This document shows positions 507 to 47,400 of a stretch of 64,000 nucleotides of DNA, piece after piece. The position numbers and the translations under genes were made by a program. How positions within the stretch are numbered: the stretch's first letter is position 1; every line of letters starts with the position of its first letter. Source of the DNA: Thermococcus sibiricus MM 739 (lineage in GTDB: Archaea; Methanobacteriota_B; Thermococci; Thermococcales; Thermococcaceae); the NCBI RefSeq assembly GCF_000022545.1, contig NC_012883.1, forward strand, positions 736,276 through 800,275, written 5' to 3'. The notes beneath the pieces are model-generated. The model was not told where the DNA came from. It saw only the letters and a list, made by a program, of their open reading frames with translations, and did no database searches.

Positions 507-617
507 TTAGCATACCATTTTTTGGAAGTTCATTGCTTCATATTTTGCATACTCTTTCTGAACTTCAGGCTTTCTTTCTTTTCCCCAAAATCCTCTTAAA
601 TTCTTAAAACTTATCAT
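507..617 (-). CDS. 36-residue protein, small family copy A
   Basis: A short ORF (MISFKNLRGFWGKERK...) of 36 residues with a good ribosome binding site, GGTGAGACG, just before its ATG at 617. It matches the short ORF at 47290-47400 at about 23 of 36 residues; many nucleotide differences are synonymous, which argues that both are translated. The roughly 60 bases upstream are also conserved between the two copies. The peptide is basic and probably a single amphipathic helix with an FW pair near residues 10-11 and an NFQ motif near the end. No known family is recognised. It sits in a decayed region beside a transposon-like hairpin, so association with mobile DNA is possible. Confidence 0.6.
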   Translation of the reverse strand: MISFKNLRGFWGKERKPEVQKEYAKYEAMNFQKMVC

Positions 618-627
618 TCGTCTCACC

Positions 628-675
628 AATTAATAATAGAATGCTCAAACTACAAGGATATATCGATCAAAAATG
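628..675 (-). promoter_or_regulatory. Conserved leader upstream of small gene A
   Basis: Read on the minus strand, this block contains CATTTTTGATC, then CCTTGTAGTTTGA, then TCTATTA before the ribosome binding site. The same elements in the same order and spacing precede copy B at 47231-47273. Conservation of non-coding sequence between the two loci suggests a 5' leader or binding site carried with the gene. Its function is unknown. Confidence 0.5.
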
Positions 676-47208: not shown

Positions 47209-47230
47209 TGGCTTTATTGCCAGGCTTGTT

Positions 47231-47273
47231 CATTTTTGACCATCATCCCCTTGTAGTTTGACCACTCTATTAA
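47231..47273 (+). promoter_or_regulatory. Conserved leader upstream of small gene B
   Basis: CATTTTTGACC, then CCTTGTAGTTTGACCA and CTCTATTA, matching the block before copy A (675-628, minus) in order and spacing. Probably a leader or binding site that travels with the small gene. Confidence 0.5.
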
Positions 47274-47289
47274 TTATTGGTGATGTGTG

Positions 47290-47400
47290 ATGTTTAGTTT
47301 CGAGAGTTTGAGAAGGTTTTGGGAGAAGGAGAGGAAGCCTGAAGTTAAAAAAGAATGGGTGAAACATGAGGCAACGAACTTCCAAAGAAAAGTAATCTGA
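47290..47400 (+). CDS. 36-residue protein, small family copy B
   Basis: A 36-residue ORF (MFSFESLRRFWEKERK...) starting at ATG 47290 after GGTGATGTG. About 23 of 36 residues match copy A at 507-617, with conserved RxFWxKERKPEV and the NFQ near the end. An inverted repeat TCCAATT (47412-47418) / AATTGGA (47436-47442) follows and may end the transcript. Basic, probably helical, no known family. The rest of the gap to 47510 holds no other gene. Confidence 0.6.
   Translation: MFSFESLRRFWEKERKPEVKKEWVKHEATNFQRKVI

Follow-up and report, generated by a model that had tools for sequence, protein, structure and literature searches.

Small proteins of 36 residues as candidate members of a shared-operator efflux and envelope-stress regulon in Thermococcaceae

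Two 36-codon open reading frames (ORFs) in a 64,000-nucleotide stretch of the Thermococcus sibiricus MM 739 genome (the window) are, on comparative evidence, the visible tip of a regulon whose members share a promoter operator. The operator recurs ahead of drug exporter genes, genes of envelope-stress type and the gene of a predicted winged-helix protein. It is likely that this protein is an autoregulated repressor which controls an envelope-stress and efflux regulon of the Thermococcaceae, with the small-protein genes as its dispersed members. The shared switch would thus point to an uncharacterised stress-response network. How archaea control drug efflux and their response to membrane stress is little understood. 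The analysis offers one defined operator, one candidate regulator conserved in most Thermococcaceae, a set of targets and a new, associated small-protein family, and genetically tractable Thermococcus makes the question open to test. The work also illustrates that a shared operator can expose genes too short for annotation.

The 36-residue protein family

Copy A (MISFKNLRGFWGKERKPEVQKEYAKYEAMNFQKMVC) occupies positions 507 to 617 of the window, stop codon included, and is read on the minus strand from 617 to 507; the strand was missing from the preliminary description, which was otherwise correct in its observation. Its start region, at 618–629 on the same strand, carries the Shine-Dalgarno sequence GGTGA, which is kept in the aligned copies. 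Copy B (MFSFESLRRFWEKERKPEVKKEWVKHEATNFQRKVI) lies on the plus strand at 47290–47400, stop codon again included, preceded by a 5' region (47265–47289) with the Shine-Dalgarno sequence GGTGATG; the GGTGA ribosome binding site is therefore present in both. The two peptides are identical at 23 of 36 residues and match by tblastn with an E value of 3e-11, which excludes chance. Their DNA differs at 28 of 108 sites, with 6, 8 and 14 differences at the first, second and third codon positions, so that half fall at third positions, where much of the difference had been remarked, and omega for the pair is 0.09. Two congeneric genomes carry orthologues of copy A, one 94% identical (L006) and the other 91% (L007), with a frameshifted C-terminus in the latter. 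Copy B has an orthologue in one relative (L015).

The family is larger than the paralogous pair first recognised. A tblastn search of the genome (1,845,800 bases, one contig) with copy A finds copy B and three more copies at E values of 2e-13 to 4e-8, giving with copy A itself five close copies (1.6e-21 to 4e-8). A sixth and distant copy, at 1099793, belongs to subfamily C. The search for further homologues, proposed with the preliminary description, returned at least one match to copy A in every one of the genus's 13 genomes. In G007 the matches are frameshifted remnants only, and the small protein is thus dispensable. The family does not extend across the Thermococcales: single-sequence searching with copy A gave no match in any of 81 other Thermococcaceae genomes, close members being confined to this genus and distant ones to some other genomes of the Thermococcaceae. 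The latter were found by profile searching, which adds two subfamilies, B (LKFWKKVSRDDP..VKEWAVKDAxDFRNR) and C (LRFWxRVSKEES..VKEWAVKEAWGFRNMM, apparently with a GTG start), present in this genus and in some genomes of other genera. In several genomes a further MFS gene follows closely downstream of a subfamily B gene.

The family is defined by homologous ORFs of 34–37 residues, of conserved length and with an L-R/K-x-F-W core, to which the copies in the window conform; M, L, F and W of the core are invariant among the aligned sequences. The protein is charged and soluble-looking, and is predicted with moderate confidence (mean pLDDT 75.5) to form a two-helix hairpin of residues 4–14 and 17–35. 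Searches of Pfam, NCBIfam, PADLOC and the PDB gave nothing usable, and phages, plasmids and viral contigs gave no match. The family is nevertheless real, and previously unlisted.

The pattern of substitution shows the small ORFs to be coding genes under purifying selection. Across eight orthologous or near-orthologous pairs, 38 synonymous changes at 145 sites are set against 52 nonsynonymous changes at 713 sites. The dN/dS comparison suggested at the outset thus yields a pooled omega of 0.24 and a synonymous excess with a binomial p of 1.5e-8, as expected of a genuine small-protein gene, although two of the eight pairs show no such excess individually. It is conceivable that the ORFs are translated by-products without protein function, given that they are very short and are frameshifted in one genome. 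The pooled omega argues against this, as do the core positions conserved through all three subfamilies and the retention of length, Shine-Dalgarno sequence and start across the family, and a by-product origin is most improbable.

The shared operator and its targets

Alignment of the copies upstream of the start codon reveals two boxes, TTTTGA[CG]C and TTTGA[CG]CA, a fixed 22 bp apart. These correspond to the blocks CATTTTTGA[TC]C and CCTTGTAGTTTGA of the preliminary description, which do occur in both window copies in the same order. The complete operator measures 38 bp and reads TGNTCA-N4-TGASC, followed 22 bp on by TGASCA, so as to flank the TATA position. Promoters of an orthologous gene in genera g2, g5 and g6, described below, revealed that box 1 is an inverted repeat, TGNTCA-N4-TGASCA. 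At the small genes the Shine-Dalgarno sequence and start lie about 25 nt past the operator. The operator of copy A (TGAGCATTTTTGATCGATATATCCTTGTAGTTTGAGCA), with the box 1 inverted repeat, the TATA position and box 2 at 22 bp, occupies 642–679 on the minus strand; that of copy B (TGTTCATTTTTGACCATCATCCCCTTGTAGTTTGACCA) occupies 47227–47264 on the plus strand, with 25 nt between box 2 and the ATG.

Copy B matches the pattern perfectly, at 16 of 16 defined positions, and copy A at 14 of 16; the two mismatches of copy A are not above chance within the window alone, and the evidence for its operator is comparative. In 34 small-gene promoters the mean is 15 of 16 positions, against a mean of 8.5 and a maximum of 13 in shuffled sequences. 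Intact copies of all three subfamilies are preceded by the operator with few exceptions, and it is absent from the usual place at two relatives found by profile (L104 and L106). A scan of 94 genomes with the 38-bp pattern listed about 80 matches in 29 genomes, and the reversed-pattern control a handful. One operator-like match, at 516312 in G000, lies inside an ORF and was taken as chance.

The conserved upstream sequence had been taken as a regulatory leader belonging to the small gene. The part of that claim which stands is that each gene has its own regulatory region; on the comparative evidence this region is a promoter operator, and not an RNA leader. A transcribed regulatory RNA, riboswitch- or attenuator-like, might have been expected from blocks so strongly conserved and fixed in order ahead of a start codon. 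Such an RNA is however very improbable. The boxes keep their 22-bp spacing with unrelated spacers between them and also precede genes from other families; box 1 forms an inverted repeat; and a clear TATA box lies between the boxes at the promoters of the regulator gene and of the orthologous gene from g2, g5 and g6 (CTTTAAAAG in one promoter of the latter). Furthermore, the folds of six leaders show no excess stability over shuffles (z of -0.6 to 1.1), and an Rfam search of the window gave no match. Since the boxes are shared with unrelated genes and no RNA-fold signal was seen, an RNA-type leader is not supported.

The suggestion that gene and upstream region spread as a unit holds at the DNA level. 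Compared in 10-bp steps, the five close paralogues have identities of 0.22–0.38 before the operator, 0.71–0.86 inside it, 0.72–0.88 over most of the ORF and 0.15–0.36 past the stop codon; identity thus climbs from about 0.3 to about 0.8 at the operator's first base and falls back to about 0.3 past the stop. A second genome gives the same profile, with slightly higher values just after the stop. With the start of the operator and the stop codon as the limits of similarity, operator and gene together behave, as far as their sequences tell, as a unit of about 174 bp (168–179 bp).

Limits as sharp as these, and the presence in each of two genomes of five to six dispersed copies, are also what would be seen of a minimal non-autonomous MITE-like element which carries the ORF by chance. 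Like MITEs and other dispersed short elements, the unit is repeated at unrelated loci. Unlike them, it has neither terminal inverted repeats nor target-site duplications beyond chance expectation at its ends, and it is coding and under selection; no transposase partner was recognised. Several copies occupy the same place in different species, and dispersal is therefore not recent. Moreover, the limits of similarity are functional limits, which selection alone would be expected to produce after older duplications. A mobile element of this kind is accordingly improbable.

The box-pair scan found the same element before an orthologous gene without a small ORF, which encodes a Toastrack protein (Pfam DUF4097, 1.7e-9) with sub-threshold similarity to LiaG; its orthologues in g2, g5 and g6 keep both boxes. 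The operator was also found before two different MFS exporter genes, a MATE gene pair and a PspC/LiaF-like operon encoding two PspC proteins (Pfam 3e-26 and 5e-21) and a LiaF-TM-like protein. Each of the MFS, MATE and PspC targets recurs at an orthologous place in two or more genomes. The MFS and MATE starts lie some 25–50 nt after box 2, as at the small genes. The operator of the PspC operon lies at a greater distance from the gene, in a region divergent with a phosphoglycerate-mutase-like gene, and precedes the operon's TATA-like sequence by about 45 bp; repressor geometry therefore does not apply at every site. In genus g3, and for most species of the large genus g4, strict matches to the operator are all but confined to the gene of the regulator itself, which implies either that the regulon is variable or that the other sites are looser.

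Two further features were seen beside these targets. In G000, between the upstream gene and the MATE pair (L229:1456-2718), are two overlapping ORFs which by eye resemble a broken TnpB/IS605-type transposase; none was seen there in G001 (L237). In G014, an operon for an ArsR protein (HTH_5, 3.7e-13) and a membrane protein lies directly upstream of an MFS target (L236:2887-4596).

The candidate winged-helix regulator

The candidate regulator is a protein of about 147 residues whose gene, in many genomes of the genus, neighbours small ORFs and directly follows a subfamily A copy; in G000 the small gene lies at 1497372 and the regulator gene at 1497729–1498151. It is single-copy in 76 of 94 Thermococcaceae genomes. 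The upstream regions of 70 orthologues were read by eye, and forms of the operator were found right before the gene, with a TATA box that falls between the boxes or adjoins them; its sequence is CCTATATG in this genus and GGCTAAAGG or CCTTTAGG in others, CCTTTATA also occurring. The boxes stand 22 bp apart in this genus and mostly 21 bp apart in g3 and g4, and at a few of these promoters box 2 is degenerate. It is this conservation at its own promoter, together with adjacency to the small genes, on which the link between regulator and operator rests.

The predicted fold (pLDDT 81) comprises an N-terminal helix of 47 residues followed by a winged helix. Its nearest solved folds by Foldseek are BlaI, Fur, PadR, MarR and ArsR, with E values of about 1e-3 and a probability of 1.00. 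In Pfam and NCBIfam the protein reaches no family cut-off, the best Pfam values being 0.005 for FUR, 0.011 for Penicillinase_R and 0.06 for HTH_5.

Boxes on either side of a TATA box are the usual geometry of archaeal repressors, and this arrangement is the ground for proposing an autoregulated repressor that gives way under membrane or drug stress. The winged-helix protein would act as a dimer, binding both boxes at its own and other promoters. Bound repressor would block access of TBP/TFB and polymerase to the TATA box; membrane or drug stress would release it, and the freed regulon would then yield pumps, membrane-stress proteins and the 36-residue proteins. The small protein may be a soluble partner in this response, perhaps most plausibly one which modulates the regulator or a pump or membrane complex, and extra copies of its gene might raise or tune its dose.

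There remains a lesser, though real, chance that an activator, or some regulator other than the winged-helix protein, binds the operator, and that the small genes are activated by stress and not derepressed. The TATA position is degenerate in the small-gene promoters (TTGTA or TTCTA), the PspC-operon site stands upstream of its TATA, and some subfamily B copies have an ArsR-like gene beside them in divergent orientation. Against an activator, the boxes flank the TATA at most targets, an arrangement typical of repression. Two other candidate regulators were also considered, of which the first was rejected and the second set aside. The ArsR protein by the MFS target in G014 is found in 70 of 94 Thermococcaceae genomes but is missing from all 13 genomes of this genus. 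The ArsR-like gene divergent from subfamily B copies has a different conserved palindrome at its own start, GTAAT-N6-ATTAC.

The GTAAT-N6-ATTAC palindrome was seen opposite subfamily B ORFs at five loci (L095, L097, L113, L099 and L102). It is probably a second, separate autoregulatory site.

Known systems and the surroundings of copy A

A repressor-controlled stress and efflux regulon is a known kind of system. With the PSP and Lia envelope-stress systems the present regulon shares PspC, LiaF-TM-like and Toastrack genes. It differs from them in that neither PspA nor a two-component LiaRS was seen in the operons read, that the genes lie dispersed and are linked through a common operator and another regulator, and that pumps and a new small-protein family are included. 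Parallels can also be drawn with the MarR-, BlaI- and PadR-type repressors of drug-efflux and resistance genes, which are likewise small winged-helix proteins with palindromic operators and efflux pump targets, and which are fold neighbours of the regulator; autoregulation would be a further likeness. Unlike these, the regulator falls below every family cut-off and has a long N-terminal helix, and its paired operators lie 21–22 bp apart around an archaeal TATA box.

In E. coli, the very small protein AcrZ is under the same control as efflux genes and is a membrane helix bound to AcrB. The comparison is one of working only and not of sequence, and the 36-residue protein is by contrast a charged, soluble-looking predicted hairpin. 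It is attractive to consider, if rather unlikely, that the 36-residue protein acts as a modulator dedicated to the winged-helix repressor or its pumps, encoded by a portable cassette of about 174 bp which was duplicated to tune the gain of the membrane-stress and efflux response, the protein serving as a feedback peptide and the extra operators titrating the regulator.

Toastrack and PspC have been reported as partners, with Toastrack sporadic in archaea, Toastrack and LiaF-TM transferred to Euryarchaeota and PspC present in some euryarchaeal clades (PMC11237479). The main text of that paper has no word beginning 'Thermococc', and a search among open-licence papers returned none on the regulator, the operator or the small protein. 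Within the searchable literature and databases, the membership of the regulon, the operator layout, the candidate regulator and the small-protein family therefore appear to be new.

The operator of copy A is situated between copy A and a divergent operon on the plus strand at 767–2498 (divergent region 642–767), which encodes an ABC transporter: an ATPase at 767–1717 (Pfam ABC_tran, 3.6e-28) and an ABC-2 permease at 1701–2498 (ABC2_membrane_2, 1.6e-15). The ATPase gene is divergent from the orthologous small-gene copy in G001 as well, and the operon might be a further member under operator control. On the other side of copy A, at 52–264 on the minus strand, lies a threonine synthase remnant in which only residues 333–403 of the G001 orthologue are recognisable; in G001 a full-length threonine synthase gene adjoins the small-gene copy.
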